Shown here one piece after another: positions 37,449 through 44,139 of a stretch of DNA of 49,481 bases. Every line of letters starts with the position of its first letter. The stretch's first letter is position 1. The translations under genes and the position numbers were made by a program. This DNA comes from Deltaproteobacteria bacterium (GTDB taxonomy: Bacteria; Desulfobacterota; GWC2-55-46; JADFVP01). The notes under the pieces are model-generated. The model was given only the letters and a program-made list of their open reading frames with translations. It was not told where the DNA came from and made no database searches. The stretch spans positions 1-49,481 of the forward strand of contig JAJRZX010000083.1 of assembly GCA_024275045.1 (NCBI GenBank). The letters are read 5' to 3'.

Positions 37449-37467
37449 AAAAGGGGATTTATCCCCC
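37449..37467 (-). terminator. Intrinsic terminator overlapping the thiC stop codon
   Basis: On the minus strand GGGG-ATAAAT-CCCC-TTTT; the TAA inside the loop is the thiC stop codon (37459-37461). The hairpin thus includes the last two codons of thiC. An identical GGGGATAAATCCCCTTTT follows thiS. Confidence 0.75.
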
Positions 37468-38724
37468 TACTTTGATGGCGCAGAGGTTTGAGCACATGGA
37501 GCATACGTCTCCGTCTTCAGGGGGTACTGAGTCACGGAGGCGTTTTGCTTTTTCGGGGTTTATGGCCAGTTGTATCTGCGTATCCCAGTCCAGGGCTTTT
37601 CTTGCCCGTGAGAGTTTATTGTCCTCCTTCATAAAGTCCCTGTTTTTCGCGATATCTCCAGCGTGTGCGGCTATGCGCGATGCGATGACTCCCTCTCTCA
37701 CGTCATCTACTCCGGGCAGGCTCAGGTGTTCCGTTGGGGTTACATAACAGAGAAAATCCGCACCTGCCTTTGCGGCTATGGCCCCGCCGATGGCCGAGGT
37801 TATGTGGTCGTACCCCGGTGCGATATCTGTTACGAGTGGGCCAAGGACATAAAAGGGCGCGCCGTCGCAGAGTTGTTTTTGAAGGATTATATTGGCCTCT
37901 ATCTGGTCGATGGGTACGTGTCCGGGCCCCTCTATCATGACCTGTACGCCTTCTGCGCGAGCCCTTCTACAGAGTTCTCCCAGGGTAATAAGCTCTTCTA
38001 TCTGCGCCCTGTCCGTGGCGTCGTGCAGGCACCCCGGGCGGAGCCCGTCTCCGAGGCTGAGTATAACATCGTATTTTTTGGCTATTTTTATCAGGCGGTC
38101 ATAACCCTCATATAGGGGGTTTTCCTTTTTATTCTGTCTCATCCACTCGGCGGTAAGGGCTCCGCCTCTGCTTACGATGCCCATGATGCGGTCCTCGCCC
38201 TTTATTCTCTCAAGGGCACGGAGGTTTACGCCTGAGTGTACGGTCATGAAATCCACACCCTCTTCTGCCTGGGCCTCGATTACATCAAAGAGGGCCTCTC
38301 CCTCGAGCTCTATAAAACTTTTACCCTTTAGCGCACCTTCTACCGCGGCCTGATACAGGGGCACCGTGCCGATGGGTACGCTTGATTCATCAAGAATGGC
38401 TTTGCGGATGGCCACAAGGTCTCCGCCTGTGGACAGGTCCATCACAGCATCGGCCCCGGCGTCAATGGCTGCGTGGAGTTTTGCCATCTCCTCGGTAATA
38501 TCTGCCTTATCGCCTGAGGTGCCTATGTTGGCGTTTACCTTTGTCTTGAGGTGTTTGCCAACGGCCATGGCGGTGGTGCCTTTTCGGTTGGTGTTTTTTA
38601 TAACTACGGTAACCCCTTCCTCAACATCTGTGCGCAGGTCCTCTGCGCTGCGGGGTTCGTTTTTAGCGGCCTCTTTCATCTCTTTGGTTACGAGGCCCTT
38701 ACGGGCCTCTACGAGCTGTGTCAT
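37459..38724 (-). CDS. thiC: Phosphomethylpyrimidine synthase
   Basis: A 421-residue radical SAM-type ThiC of the short form. It has MDLSTGGDLVAIRKAIL, FMTVHSGVNLRAL, SRGGALTAEWM and LGDGLRPGCLHDATDRAQ. The C-terminal cluster motif is CSMCSNLC (about residues 409-416), the CX2CX3C variant seen in short ThiC proteins in place of CX2CX4C. It converts AIR to HMP phosphate using SAM and a [4Fe-4S] cluster. It lies 22 bp downstream of thiE and ends the thiamine operon at a terminator. Confidence 0.93.
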   Translation of the reverse strand: MTQLVEARKGLVTKEMKEAAKNEPRSAEDLRTDVEEGVTVVIKNTNRKGTTAMAVGKHLKTKVNANIGTSGDKADITEEMAKLHAAIDAGADAVMDLSTGGDLVAIRKAILDESSVPIGTVPLYQAAVEGALKGKSFIELEGEALFDVIEAQAEEGVDFMTVHSGVNLRALERIKGEDRIMGIVSRGGALTAEWMRQNKKENPLYEGYDRLIKIAKKYDVILSLGDGLRPGCLHDATDRAQIEELITLGELCRRARAEGVQVMIEGPGHVPIDQIEANIILQKQLCDGAPFYVLGPLVTDIAPGYDHITSAIGGAIAAKAGADFLCYVTPTEHLSLPGVDDVREGVIASRIAAHAGDIAKNRDFMKEDNKLSRARKALDWDTQIQLAINPEKAKRLRDSVPPEDGDVCSMCSNLCAIKVGG

Positions 38725-38746: not shown

Positions 38747-39412
38747 TTATAATGCCTTTCTACTCTTATTATTATCATAGTATATAAGTTCATCTCTTAG
38801 CTCTCTTGCGCTTTTTTCTATCTCATGAGAGGCGAGTATGGCGGAGATTAGGGCTATTCCCGCGGCACCTGCCTCCATTACCTCTGCAATATTTTTATAC
38901 TTAATCCCTCCAAGGGCGTATACGGGAATTTTTAATTTTTTTACTGCACTGGCAAGTGGTTTTATACCTATGGGTTCTCCATAAGGGGCCTTGCTCGGGG
39001 TATGGTATATGGGGCTGAGGGTTACGTAGTCCGCGCCCTCTGCCTCGGCTTTTACTGCATGGGCAGGGTCGTGCGTGGAGACCCCTATAATGGCTTTGTC
39101 TCCAAGGAGCGCGCGGGCATCACGTGGCGAGAAGGCCGTTTCAGGCAGATGTACCCCGTGGGCAGAGGCGAGTTTTGCGATATCCACTCTCTCGTTTATT
39201 ATAAGGGCTGCATTAAATTTATCTGTGAGTTTTTTAAGCTCATGGGCAAGGCCGAGTACCTGCCGTGCGTTTAGTGTTTTTTCTCTTAGCTGAATGGCAT
39301 CAACGCCGCCTCGAAGGGCTTTTTCTGCTGCCTGTAAAAAAGTTTTTTCATCGGCAAAGAGTTTTAAGTCGGTAATGAGCATAAGCCTGCCGGGCATTCT
39401 CCGGTTAAGCAT
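38747..39412 (-). CDS. thiE: Thiamine phosphate synthase
   Basis: A 221-residue TIM-barrel enzyme. GVDAIQLREKTLNARQVLGL (about residues 35-54) and YVTLSPIYHTPSKAPYG (about residues 130-146) are the pyrophosphate-binding and thiazole-side motifs. ALGGIKYKNIAEVMEAGAAG follows. It joins HMP-PP and thiazole phosphate. The start overlaps the lgt stop by 8 bp, so thiE is probably translated by coupling to lgt. A second in-frame ATG five codons later is possible. Confidence 0.92.
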   Translation of the reverse strand: MLNRRMPGRLMLITDLKLFADEKTFLQAAEKALRGGVDAIQLREKTLNARQVLGLAHELKKLTDKFNAALIINERVDIAKLASAHGVHLPETAFSPRDARALLGDKAIIGVSTHDPAHAVKAEAEGADYVTLSPIYHTPSKAPYGEPIGIKPLASAVKKLKIPVYALGGIKYKNIAEVMEAGAAGIALISAILASHEIEKSARELRDELIYYDNNKSRKAL

Positions 39413-40217
39413 GGCTGCGCCTTTTTTTCATTTGTTTCGCAGTCTGAGCCTCGGGCTCCCACAATCTTTTCTGTATTATTATGGCCATTGCGATGATAAA
39501 GAGCGAGATGCTTACAAGCTGAGCTGCCCGCCACTGGCCGAACATAAGGCTGTCGGCCCTGAACCACTCCACAAAACACCTTATTACCGAGTACATGGCC
39601 ACGTAGGCGGCGAAGATAAAACCGCGTTTATGTTCACGGCGGCGCAGCACCAGCCAGATAAATAGAAAAATACTTACGTTGAGCAGCAGTTCGTAGAGCA
39701 TTACCGGATGAATGGGGATGCCCGGGAATTGCCTTCCCGCTACGCTCTCAGGTGAGAAGACCAGACCCCATGGCAGCGTAGTGGGTACGCCGTGGGCGTC
39801 GCCGTTCATGAAGTTACCGAATCTGCCAAATGCCTGGCCCAGTATAAGGGCAGGGGCCACGCAGTCTGAGAGTCGCCAGAAAGAGACCTTTTTTTTACGC
39901 AGATATATCCACGCCACTGCTATGCCCCCGGCGATACCTCCGTGTATGGCAAGCCCTCCGTGCCAGATGGCGGGTATCTCTGATGGCACGCTCATGTAGT
40001 AGCCGAAGTTAAAGAGCACGTAGTATAGGCGCGCACCGACAATACCACCGATTACTGTCCAGAGTATGAAGTTAGAGACCTGGTCATCAGTAAGGGCGAT
40101 TTGTTTACGGCGGATCTCGCTCCTTATGATACGCGTGCCCACGATAATGGCCACAACGTACATGAGTCCGTAGAAGCGCAGCTCAATGGGGCCGTATGAG
40201 AAGAGTATTGGGTGCAA
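39405..40217 (-). CDS. lgt: Phosphatidylglycerol:prolipoprotein diacylglyceryl transferase
   Basis: A 270-residue inner-membrane enzyme with seven hydrophobic helices. The essential segments are IWHGGLAIHGGIAGG (about residues 83-97) and GQAFGRFGNFMNGDAHGVPT (about residues 127-146), the Lgt signature. It attaches diacylglycerol to lipobox cysteines. Its place between thiG and thiE puts an essential lipoprotein gene inside the thiamine operon. The gap from thiG is 27 bp and it overlaps thiE by 8 bp. It may have its own promoter. Confidence 0.95.
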   Translation of the reverse strand: MHPILFSYGPIELRFYGLMYVVAIIVGTRIIRSEIRRKQIALTDDQVSNFILWTVIGGIVGARLYYVLFNFGYYMSVPSEIPAIWHGGLAIHGGIAGGIAVAWIYLRKKKVSFWRLSDCVAPALILGQAFGRFGNFMNGDAHGVPTTLPWGLVFSPESVAGRQFPGIPIHPVMLYELLLNVSIFLFIWLVLRRREHKRGFIFAAYVAMYSVIRCFVEWFRADSLMFGQWRAAQLVSISLFIIAMAIIIQKRLWEPEAQTAKQMKKRRSHA

Positions 40218-40244: not shown

Positions 40245-41015
40245 TTATGCTATCAGTCCATCTATGGGGCTTGATGCCGAGGCGTAGAGTTTTTTCGGTA
40301 TGCGCCCCGCGCGGTATGCAAGCCTGCCCGCGGTAGTGGCAAGCCCCATTGCGCGCGCCATTGCCAGCGGGTCCTTGGCGCATGCGATGCCTGTATTCAT
40401 AAGTATGCCGTCACACCCAAGCTCCATTGCAAGGGCAGCGTCAGACGCCGTACCAACTCCGGCGTCTACGATAATGGGCACACCTGCGCCCTCGATTATT
40501 ATTCTGATATTATATGGGTTTCTTATGCCCAGTCCGCTTCCTATGGGAGCGGCAAGGGGCATGACAGCGGCGGCTCCGGCCTCTTCAAGCTTTCGCGCCA
40601 TAATGGGGTCGTCATTTGTATAGGCCAGAACCTTGAAACCCTCTTTAACAAGGATTTTCGTAGCCTCAAGGGATGCCTCGTTATCAGGAAAAAGCGTCTT
40701 CTCGTCTCCCATGACCTCGAGTTTTACGAGATCCGTCTCCAGTGCCTCTCTTGCCAGCCGTGCCGTTCGAAGCGCGTCATCTATGGTATAACAACCGGCG
40801 GTATTTGGCAGGAGCGTATATTTTTTCGTATCAATATACTCAAGCAAAGAGCCCTCGCCTCCTGTGAGATCTATGCGCCGCACGGCTACGGTAACCACCT
40901 CTGTACCCGATGCGTCAAGTGCCTCTCTCATGAGTTCATTTGTGCTGTACTTACCTGTTCCCACCATAAGGCGGGATTTAAACTCATGCCCCGCTATTTT
41001 TAATGTATCACTCAT
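40245..41015 (-). CDS. thiG: Thiazole synthase
   Basis: A 256-residue TIM-barrel protein. [20 protein letters not shown] (residues 15-34), [19 protein letters not shown] (with the Schiff-base lysine region), and [16 protein letters not shown] are ThiG motifs. It builds the thiazole from DXP, ThiS thiocarboxylate and dehydroglycine. AAAGGAG lies upstream of the ATG at 6-8 bases. It is separated from thiS by 255 bp of repeats and a terminator, so it may rely on read-through or its own promoter. Confidence 0.94.
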
Positions 41016-41270: not shown

Positions 41271-41471
41271 TTATCCTCCGCCAACCATGGTGATTATTTC
41301 GATGACATCCCCTTCTCTGATAATATGTGTTCCGTGGCCTGCGCGGGGGATAATCTCTCTGTTTATCTCCACGGCCGTACCGCGTCTCTGTATGTCGAGC
41401 TCAGTGAGGAGGCTCTGCAGGGTGATGTTTTCCTTAACTTCTCTGGTGTGCCCGTTTATCGTAACTTCCAT
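41271..41471 (-). CDS. thiS: Sulfur carrier protein ThiS
   Basis: A 66-residue ubiquitin-like protein. It starts MEVTINGHTREVKENITLQS, has AVEINREIIPR in the middle and ends IITMVGGG, with the C-terminal glycines needed for adenylation and thiocarboxylate formation. One extra Gly follows the usual GG, or the alignment is simply shifted by one. It lies 14 bp downstream of the HydG-like gene and upstream of thiG. No thiF is in the window. Confidence 0.9.
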   Translation of the reverse strand: MEVTINGHTREVKENITLQSLLTELDIQRRGTAVEINREIIPRAGHGTHIIREGDVIEIITMVGGG

Positions 41472-41485
41472 TTTTACCTTTTATC

Positions 41486-42886
41486 CTAAAAATATATATC
41501 TCTTTTTCCATTATCAATCTCATGGAGTTTTTTTATAACATCTTTTTTCATGGCCGGGTCTTTTATCTCGGCAAGACATTTTTGTATCACCTCTTCAAGG
41601 GGCGCCTTTAATGTATCGTCTCTGTGGTCGGCGATAAATTCCTTTATGGTAAGTGCGGCGTTGGCGCTGCAGTTTTTTCCCATCTTGCCTGCCCCTGTTA
41701 TATTGGTGAAAGCCGCGCCCGTGCGTCCTCTGCGGTAACAGGTGGTGCAGAGGCTTGGGATAAAACCCTCAACCGCGATGGAGCGCATGACTTCGCCAAG
41801 GCCACGGTGGTCGGCGGTATCGAACTGCGTGGTCCCTGTTTTCTCTTCTTTTACCTCAGGTTCTATTGTCTCTGTATCGGGTCTTTCCGTATAACCTCCG
41901 GGGTCTGTGCGTGAGGCCGCGCTGAGCTGGCTTGCCCCGATATGCAGGAGGGTTTTTCTAAGGGCAGCGGACTCTCTTGTTGATACTACCACCCCTGCCG
42001 TGGGTACGGAGAGGCGGAAGACGGCCACTATTTTTTTAAGCTCCTCATCTCCTACCTCAAAGGGCACCTCCGAGAGGTGCGCACCTTCTGCGTGGCGCAG
42101 CCTTGGTATGGATAGCGTATGCGCGTGGGCTCCGTACTTGTGGTACAGGTATGCGGAGTGAGCGATAGTAGCGAGGCAATCGAACTTGTAATCATACAAC
42201 CCAAGGAGCGGGCCTATGCCAAGGTCGTGAAAGCCCGCTGATACGGCCCTGTCCATAACCGTTAGGCGGTAATCAAAGTCGCTCTTTGCGCCAAATGGGT
42301 GCATCTTAGCGTATGTCTCTCGGTGGTATGTCTCCTGAAAAGCCTGAAAAACCCCGACTCCCGCTTCTTTCAGTGCCCTTAACTCGGCTACCCCAACAGG
42401 CGGTGCGTTAAGGTGGACTATCCTCATATCAGTCTCTGCGTAGACGGCTTTTACGCAGGAAATTATGTAATCAACTCCCCAGCGCGGGTCTTCTCCTGTT
42501 ACAAGGAGCACTCGCTTAAAGCCCATATCCGTAAGCGCGCGTGCCTCGGTTACAACCTCGGCAGGTGTGAGGGCCTTTCTCGGCGTCTTGTCCTCCGCGT
42601 TTCTAAAGCCGCAGTACAGGCAGCCGTTAACGCAGTAATTGGATAGGTAAAGCGGGGCAAAGAGGACCACTCTTTTACCGAATACGCGCTCTTTCACCTC
42701 TGCGGCCTTTTTGTATAGTTCGCCTAGCAGGTCTTTGGCCCGGGTATTAAGGAGCAGAGCGGCAGCCTCTAAGGTGAGGCCCTCTGCCGGGTTGGAGCTC
42801 TCTATGCTTTGCAAGACCTCTCTAAAGTCCTTTTTTGTCGTAGGGCCTGAGGCCGTAAGTGTGGTTATTTTTTTGAAATCCAGCAT
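41486..42886 (-). CDS. HydG-type radical SAM tyrosine lyase in the thiH position
   Basis: A 466-residue radical SAM enzyme starting at 42886 (MLDFKKITTLT), with GGGCGGA upstream. The radical SAM motif is CVNGCLYC (about residues 84-91). The C-terminal domain has CTTC followed after 22 residues by C (LCTTCYRRGRTGAAFTN then KMGKNCSANAALT), exactly the CX2CX22C of HydG, which in HydG holds the auxiliary cluster that turns dehydroglycine into CO and cyanide. ThiH proteins are about 370-380 residues and lack this. Yet the gene sits behind a TPP riboswitch and before thiS and thiG, so it probably supplies dehydroglycine for thiazole. The frame extends to 42964, but that part overlaps the terminator hairpin. 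Confidence 0.85.
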   Translation of the reverse strand: MLDFKKITTLTASGPTTKKDFREVLQSIESSNPAEGLTLEAAALLLNTRAKDLLGELYKKAAEVKERVFGKRVVLFAPLYLSNYCVNGCLYCGFRNAEDKTPRKALTPAEVVTEARALTDMGFKRVLLVTGEDPRWGVDYIISCVKAVYAETDMRIVHLNAPPVGVAELRALKEAGVGVFQAFQETYHRETYAKMHPFGAKSDFDYRLTVMDRAVSAGFHDLGIGPLLGLYDYKFDCLATIAHSAYLYHKYGAHAHTLSIPRLRHAEGAHLSEVPFEVGDEELKKIVAVFRLSVPTAGVVVSTRESAALRKTLLHIGASQLSAASRTDPGGYTERPDTETIEPEVKEEKTGTTQFDTADHRGLGEVMRSIAVEGFIPSLCTTCYRRGRTGAAFTNITGAGKMGKNCSANAALTIKEFIADHRDDTLKAPLEEVIQKCLAEIKDPAMKKDVIKKLHEIDNGKRDIYF

Positions 42887-42918: not shown

Positions 42919-42950
42919 AAAAAAAGGCCAACCCTTCTGTAAGGGCGGCC
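42919..42950 (-). terminator. Riboswitch expression platform: intrinsic terminator
   Basis: On the minus strand GGCC-GCCCTT, loop ACAG, AAGGGTT-GGCC, then seven T residues. It lies between the TPP aptamer and the HydG-like start codon, the position of a classic transcription-attenuation platform. TPP binding would favour this hairpin and switch the operon off. Confidence 0.85.
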
Positions 42951-43002
42951 TGATAACGAGTCACGGGAGGGGTCTTAACTATCCACGTGATTTTTTGAAC
43001 CG

Positions 43003-43103
43003 AGTCCGCTTCCCTACGCTGGCATTATCCAGATCAGGTATCATTAGGGTCTTCTCCCGCCTTTTGGTGGAGAACTCTCAGCCTCTGCGGCTCCCCTGCG
43101 TTA
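43003..43103 (-). ncRNA. TPP riboswitch (thi box)
   Basis: On the minus strand the conserved blocks appear in order: GCAGGGGAGCC, GGCTGAGAG, a variable P3 stem (GTTCTCCACC/GGCGGGAGAAG), GACCCTAATGATACCTGATC, TGGATAATGCCAGCGTAGGG and AAGCG. CTGAGA and CCTGATCTGG bind the pyrimidine and pyrophosphate parts of TPP. Pairing CCAG/CTGG is intact. It heads the thiH-thiS-thiG-lgt-thiE-thiC genes. Confidence 0.96.
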
Positions 43104-43126
43104 TGATACGACATTTGTATAATTTA

Positions 43127-43472: not shown

Positions 43473-44075
43473 TTAGATGATGTTGCTTGCGGAGATTATG
43501 GACTCTGCCACGTCGCGCATTTTTTTATTTTCTTTCTGAGAGTAGCGCTGCAGCACCTTAAATGCATCGTCCTCTGTAATGGTGCAGCGTTTCATGAGAA
43601 TGCCCTTGGCTCTTTCGATGAGTTTGCGCGTCTCCATGGCCTCTTTCAGGTTATTAACCTCGTTTTTGAGGCCCTGAAATTCTTTGAAGCGGGAGAGGGC
43701 CACACGTATGGCCGGGTCGAGTTGTTTTTTCGTGACAGGTTTAAGCAGATATGCGAAGACACCTGCGTCTACGACTTTTTCAGGTATCTCGCTTGAGGAT
43801 ATACCGGTTATAAGGATGATAGGCACGGGTTTTTTGGCGCTAATGGCTTTTGCGGCCTCTACACCATCCATCTCGGGCATCTTAATGTCCATGATGATAA
43901 GGCCGGGGTCGAGCTTTTCCGTAAGCTCCACGGCCTCACGTCCGTTGGCTACGGAGCCCACAACTGAGTATCCCAAAAGTTCGAGTTGGCCCGCTAAAAA
44001 AGCCCTCGTCTTTTCGTTATCCTCGGCTATGAGAACTCTCTGTTTTCTTGTCGTATCGTCTGCTTTTGCCATCAT
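43473..44075 (-). CDS. Response regulator with ANTAR RNA-binding output domain
   Basis: A 200-residue protein. The receiver has LIAEDNEKTRAF (residues 15-26), phosphoacceptor D63 in IIMDIKMPEMDG, and LLKPVTKKQLD with the conserved lysine. The C-terminal ANTAR domain (about residues 140-196) reads RKLIERAKGILMKRC then ITEDDAFKVLQRYSQKENKK, as in AmiR/NasR-type antiterminators that bind paired hexaloop hairpins in leader RNA. Start at 44075 is favoured by AAGG six bases upstream. No ANTAR target is obvious nearby. The upstream palindrome may control its own expression. Confidence 0.92.
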   Translation of the reverse strand: MMAKADDTTRKQRVLIAEDNEKTRAFLAGQLELLGYSVVGSVANGREAVELTEKLDPGLIIMDIKMPEMDGVEAAKAISAKKPVPIILITGISSSEIPEKVVDAGVFAYLLKPVTKKQLDPAIRVALSRFKEFQGLKNEVNNLKEAMETRKLIERAKGILMKRCTITEDDAFKVLQRYSQKENKKMRDVAESIISASNII

Positions 44076-44085
44076 GACAAACCTT

Positions 44086-44139
44086 ATAATCGTCAACGAT
44101 TATTTATATAGCATAATATATAAGTTACTTGAAAGTCAA
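44086..44139 (-). promoter_or_regulatory. Promoter with an 18-bp palindrome at the start point
   Basis: TTGACT (44139-44134), 18-bp spacer, TATGCT (44115-44110) on the minus strand predict a start near 44103. Exactly there lies a perfect palindrome, ATAATCGT-TG-ACGATTAT (44103-44086), followed by AAGG and the ATG. It could be a repressor operator or a 5' mRNA hairpin next to the ribosome site. Confidence 0.5.

Follow-up and report, generated by a model that had tools for sequence, protein, structure and literature searches.

The thiamine operon described here, from a Deltaproteobacteria bacterium, carries in the position of thiH a tyrosine lyase of the HydG lineage. Judged from its sequence, its genomic context and its relatives, this protein is probably (at about 0.8) a HydG-derived 2-iminoacetate synthase that feeds ThiG in the place of ThiH and retains a remodelled auxiliary iron–sulfur site. 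HydG and ThiH both split tyrosine into p-cresol and dehydroglycine; HydG turns dehydroglycine into CO and cyanide at the auxiliary iron, whereas ThiH hands it to ThiG. The fold and the first half-reaction are known, and what would be new is the pairing of the HydG auxiliary site with thiazole synthesis.

The DNA derives from assembly GCA_024275045.1 (2.28 Mb, completeness 99.2%), and the window, by which we mean the whole stretch of 49,481 nucleotides analysed, covers positions 1–49,481 of contig JAJRZX010000083.1. An earlier reading made without database searches, hereafter the sequence-only reading, had placed the gene at 41486–42886 with a product of 466 residues, and translation showed both to be right. 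The strand, which that reading had not given, is minus: across this interval the plus strand has 12 stops, and the minus strand yields the 466-aa protein. The two cysteine motifs it had claimed, CX3CX2C and the C-terminal CX2CX22C of HydG, were found at C85, C89 and C92 and at C380, C383 and C406. The protein scores 406 bits with the NCBIfam HydG model TIGR03955, above the cut-off of 312, and 312 bits with the ThiH model TIGR02351, below the cut-off of 380; it is present in a single copy in the genome. The features of the locus are listed below, all on the minus strand and in the order of transcription, with the HydG-like proteins of thiamine context referred to as the thi clade.

42993–43107, minus strand: TPP riboswitch aptamer (Rfam RF00059, 58.7 bits against a gathering score of 54.3)
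about 42925–42951, minus strand: intrinsic terminator hairpin, AGGCCGCCCTT-ACAG-AAGGGTTGGCCT, followed by a T-run (-16.8 kcal/mol, z = -3.9)
41486–42886, minus strand: tyrosine lyase of the HydG lineage (466 aa), in the place of thiH
42611–42634, minus strand: radical SAM motif CX3CX2C, CVNGCLYC (C85-X3-C89-X2-C92), in 54/54 aligned thi-clade members
42413–42421, minus strand: signature residues I156 and H158 of the clade (81/81 HydG have R and N)
42350–42352, minus strand: clade signature V179 (T in 81/81 HydG)
42119–42121, minus strand: H256, aligned with H265 of Thermoanaerobacter HydG (54/54 thi clade, 81/81 HydG, 0/10 ThiH)
41669–41749, minus strand: auxiliary cluster motif CX2CX22C (C380-X2-C383-X22-C406), in 54/54 of the thi clade
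41271–41471, minus strand: thiS, sulfur carrier with a C-terminal GGG (TIGR01683, 76.6 bits against 37.45)
40245–41015, minus strand: thiG, thiazole synthase (PF05690, 369 bits)
39405–40217, minus strand: lgt, encoding prolipoprotein diacylglyceryl transferase, inside the thiamine operon (TIGR00544, 224.5 bits against 118.9)
38747–39412, minus strand: thiE, thiamine phosphate synthase (TIGR00693, 185 bits against 145)
37459–38724, minus strand: thiC, phosphomethylpyrimidine synthase (NF009895, 636.5 bits against 410)

From 5′ to 3′ the operon therefore reads TPP riboswitch, terminator, hydG-like gene, thiS, thiG, lgt, thiE and thiC. A riboswitch followed by a terminator hairpin and then by the gene is the classical layout for a TPP-controlled transcription switch, and the hairpin is likely to be the expression platform of the riboswitch. 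Both the riboswitch upstream of the hydG-like gene and the thiS and thiG genes downstream of it had been recognised from the letters alone, and the matches to RF00059 (at 43107–42993), TIGR01683 and PF05690 agree with that assignment. A HydG-like relative is found in 54 of 59 related genomes, fragments counted, and the gene order from hydG-like to thiC is kept in nearly all of them where the contig shows it. The arrangement recurs in about 50 related genomes across the order and the class, and so is not a matter of chance. The TPP riboswitch lies directly upstream in all ten class loci tested. Outside the class, thiamine-context members occur in Moorella mulderi (L091), in Nitrospirota MAGs (L086, L099), in a MAG titled Deferribacteres (L107) and in others; six of seven such loci have a TPP riboswitch, and the seventh, L086, adjoins a thiF bearing an N-terminal ThiS-like domain. 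As a separate observation, lgt stands between thiG and thiE throughout the class but not in the clade members examined outside it. Upstream of the operon and in the same orientation, a response regulator with an RNA-binding ANTAR domain is encoded at 43473–44096 on the minus strand, a position kept in most of the order.

Profile searches of the Deltaproteobacteria bacterium genome found no HydA, no HypD and no [NiFe] large subunit (PF00374), and no HydE or HydF over the cut-off anywhere in it; each of these searches gave an over-cut-off match in at least one control genome. The sequence-only reading had noted the lack of hydE and hydF in the window, which holds and extends to the whole genome, and the genome search it had proposed for hydA, hydE, hydF and a second thiH returned nothing over the cut-off. 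Among the 59 related genomes, none has HydA, and none has a canonical ThiH or a ThiO over the cut-off. ThiO, a glycine oxidase and an unrelated flavoenzyme, is the enzyme that would provide ThiG with dehydroglycine in aerobes. With neither ThiH nor ThiO over the cut-off, the HydG-like protein is the sole tyrosine lyase of the genome and, as far as the searches for HydG, ThiH and ThiO show, its one visible anaerobic source of dehydroglycine.

The residue comparison rests on an alignment of 54 thi-clade, 81 HydG and 10 ThiH proteins. The thi-clade proteins share a mean pairwise identity of 57% (minimum 42%), and despite this divergence the SAM cysteines, C380, C383, C406 and H256 are kept in all 54. 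Loss of the auxiliary ligands, which the sequence-only reading had named as an outcome that would refute it, was not seen on careful alignment. H265 of Thermoanaerobacter HydG (PDB 4WCX), with which H256 aligns, reportedly binds the fifth iron (Dinis and colleagues, 2015). Three positions fixed in all 81 HydG proteins, R165, N167 and T188 in Ti numbering, are I, H and V in the window protein: position 156 is I in 52/54 of the thi clade, position 158 is H in 54/54 and position 179 is V in 52/54. The tyrosine site is conserved throughout the clade, with T303, R304, R310, S322 and S325 in 54/54 members; these are the counterparts of T299, R300, R306, S318 and S321 of Thermosinus ThiH, whose tyrosine-binding roles are given in PMC9046217. 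The same paper served to verify the numbering of TcThiH and TiHydG: F81, E133 and F192 of TiHydG fall into place when 4wcx chain numbers are shifted by 14, so that H279 of the chain corresponds to H265. The position of the carboxylate-binding E158 of ThiH is N160 in 54/54 of the thi clade. Two candidate markers were set aside. The additional histidine H254, found in most members of the class to which the window belongs, is absent from basal members and was dropped as a clade marker. A Glu or Asp at position 128 of Thermosinus ThiH, published as conserved in HydG, is present in 26/81 HydG and in none of the thi clade, and therefore does not separate the groups.

The AF2 model of the protein (pLDDT 85.9) superposes on HydG (4wcx) with a TM-score of 0.91 and on ThiH (7pd1) with 0.69, both normalised to the query. 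It places residues 156–160 on strand 3, residues 177–181 on strand 4 and residue 256 at the start of strand 6, and by this strand topology 156, 158, 179 and 256 would line the barrel interior on the way from the tyrosine site to the auxiliary one. With HydG (TIGR03955; PDB 4WCX, 4RTB) the protein shares, besides this fold, its length, the SAM motif, CX2CX22C, the H265-equivalent histidine, the channel residues F81 and F192 and the asparagine at the ThiH E158 position. It differs from HydG in its place in a TPP-controlled thiamine operon without HydA, HydE or HydF, in its own clade, and in R156I, N158H and T179V. With ThiH (TIGR02351; PDB 7PD1) it shares the operon position, the expected product and the tyrosine-binding residues, but ThiH has about 370 aa, lacks the auxiliary domain and its cysteines, and has I or V at the H256 position.

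The contrast between I-H-V and R-N-T, first drawn from one group of loci, was then tried on another 19 that a phylum search had supplied (L207–L225). Twelve of these carry H158 (eleven as IHV, one as MHV), with thi genes adjacent in 11 and a contig end in the remaining one. The other seven are of the RNT type; none has thi genes and three lie beside hydE or hydF. The signature followed gene context without exception in these loci, and residue 158, His or Asn, split the two contexts in every sequence examined.

The phylogeny with HydG and ThiH that the sequence-only reading had called for sets the thiamine-context proteins apart from both. In a careful tree of 79 proteins, built without NosL, the HydG-like proteins sampled from thiamine operons, 30 in number, all group in a single clade (100/98), which adjoins Bacillota HydG from hyd operons (96/97), and short ThiH forms a clade of its own (100/100), separate from thi-HydG. 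There is thus good support for a close kinship of the thiamine-context proteins, distinct from hydrogenase HydG. The sequence-only reading had named placement in an already described HydG-like ThiH clade as an outcome that would refute it; no such clade was found in the open-licence PMC literature. The thi clade might also be an evolutionary intermediate: an enzyme of thiazole synthesis that already had the auxiliary cluster would be the older form, from which HydG, short ThiH or both were derived. This proposal concerns descent and is compatible with the function suggested above. An AU test does not reject a group of ThiH and the thi-HydG clade (p = 0.28), a result compatible with either direction of descent, and a quick tree rooted on NosL nests ThiH among the thiamine-context proteins. 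However, NosL was dropped as an outgroup, since its great branch length (9 changes per column) made the root unreliable, and both NosL and ThiH are very long branches whose placement is weak; given that the careful tree sets ThiH apart and the thi clade beside Bacillota HydG, we consider an intermediate unlikely.

In the mechanism that we propose, the radical SAM cluster would split tyrosine into p-cresol and dehydroglycine, and the latter would go to ThiG, where it would be joined with the sulfur of ThiS-thiocarboxylate and with deoxyxylulose phosphate to form the thiazole. The auxiliary [4Fe-4S] site of HydG would still be assembled, with the path to it and its surroundings remodelled by the changes of R156 to I, N158 to H and T179 to V. 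The remodelled channel may limit or redirect passage to the auxiliary iron, and dehydroglycine would mostly be spared from breakdown to CO and cyanide.

The sequence-only reading had left two options: a HydG-like enzyme adopted for thiazole synthesis with its auxiliary site kept, or one enzyme serving both pathways. The first is supported by the phylogeny, the conserved operon, the lack of ThiH and ThiO, and the full conservation of the ligands across a multi-phylum clade. The second, in which the protein would provide dehydroglycine for ThiG as well as CO and cyanide on iron for a hydrogenase, would account for the retention of the auxiliary-cluster ligands and the dangler histidine. It is nonetheless very improbable, as the gene is under a TPP riboswitch and the genome, without HydA, HypD, a [NiFe] large subunit, or HydE or HydF over the cut-off, has no known acceptor of CO or cyanide; for [FeFe]- and [NiFe]-hydrogenases, the searches speak against such dual use in this genome. 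Moreover, six relatives, and Moorella mulderi likewise, hold the thi-operon gene together with a separate, true HydG beside HydE. Harder still to credit is an ordinary HydG that has only come to lie in the operon, for example by a local rearrangement. The NCBI HydG model does accept the protein, but the placement is conserved in about 50 genomes and in other phyla, there is neither a hydrogenase nor another ThiH, and the clade signature occurs in 0/81 HydG.

The four metal ligands may be invariant because they support the structure, because the site holds dehydroglycine or because it carries out new chemistry; their retention could equally mean that the HydG reaction itself is retained. In a narrower version of our explanation, the auxiliary cluster would be a relic with a structural role only, the C-terminal domain steadying the fold and the enzyme working as a short ThiH does. 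ThiH functions without this domain, and the outer part of it (417–459) is poorly conserved, with a mean majority residue of 49%. On the other hand, residues 376–416, which surround the cluster, match true HydG in their degree of conservation, H256, which is in the barrel and not in the domain, is also invariant, and the positions that would line the channel by strand topology took fixed new residues and did not drift. On balance the structural version is a doubtful but live possibility. Somewhat less likely again is that the site, once remodelled, catalyses a distinct step in making the thiazole. H158, joined by H254 in most of the class, would then be new ligands of an iron near H256, and rather than break dehydroglycine down to CO and cyanide the site would hold or channel it, or handle sulfur.

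Our searches also revealed true HydG beside HydE in 7 of the 59 relatives (G018, G025, G034, G037, G041, G049 and G052), at the following loci.

L041–L047: HydG–HydE loci, on G049:C118, G025:C130, G037:C49, G018:C9, G034:C152, G041:C106 and G052:C195
L047, 8228–14442; L043, 1198–9793; L042, 1254–6247: example spans of HydG–HydE loci

All seven HydE proteins start with a HypC motif, confirmed as Pfam HupF_HypC in the four scanned; similar HypC–HydE fusions were seen by sequence motif in a Nitrospirae MAG (L093) and a Margulisiibacteriota MAG (L108). HydA and HypD are missing from all seven genomes, and HypD is present in 45/52 of the other relatives. At three loci, L042, L043 and L047, structural genes of a [NiFe] hydrogenase adjoin the pair (PF00374, PF01058), the PF00374 protein of L043 being of the selenocysteine type, and at L043 and L047 there is also a Pfam-confirmed HycI protease. 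A [NiFe] large subunit adjoining a C-terminal HydG fragment in a genome without HypD (G023:C158:6570–7908) is probably an eighth case. These loci suggest that HydE and HydG stand in for HypD and its partners in the maturation of a [NiFe]-hydrogenase. Such a role would be relevant to where the CO comes from under anaerobic conditions, and is possibly more novel than the thi-HydG finding. In-frame TGA codons, one or two per gene, in the [NiFe] large subunits of L236, L237 and L239–L243 likely encode selenocysteine. Elsewhere, HydG-like proteins of Bacteroidales, Lentisphaeraceae, Spirochaetales and Delongbacteria MAGs (L102, L106, L129, L144, L145, L158, L160) have T to A at 303 and S to D at 322, both tyrosine-phenol-binding positions, changes that suggest an altered substrate.

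With regard to the family, two supposedly separate tyrosine lyase roles appear to be filled from one lineage, and the thi clade, present in a large group of anaerobes devoid of [FeFe]-hydrogenase, offers a natural test of the role of the HydG auxiliary cluster where hydrogenase is absent. The thi-clade proteins look misannotated, because the standard NCBI HydG model accepts them; for the same reason, gene counts for [FeFe]-hydrogenase maturation are probably too high, and reconstructions of the thiamine pathway are likely to report a missing thiH. The question is open to direct test in genomes with both paralogues, among them that of Moorella mulderi, which is in culture.
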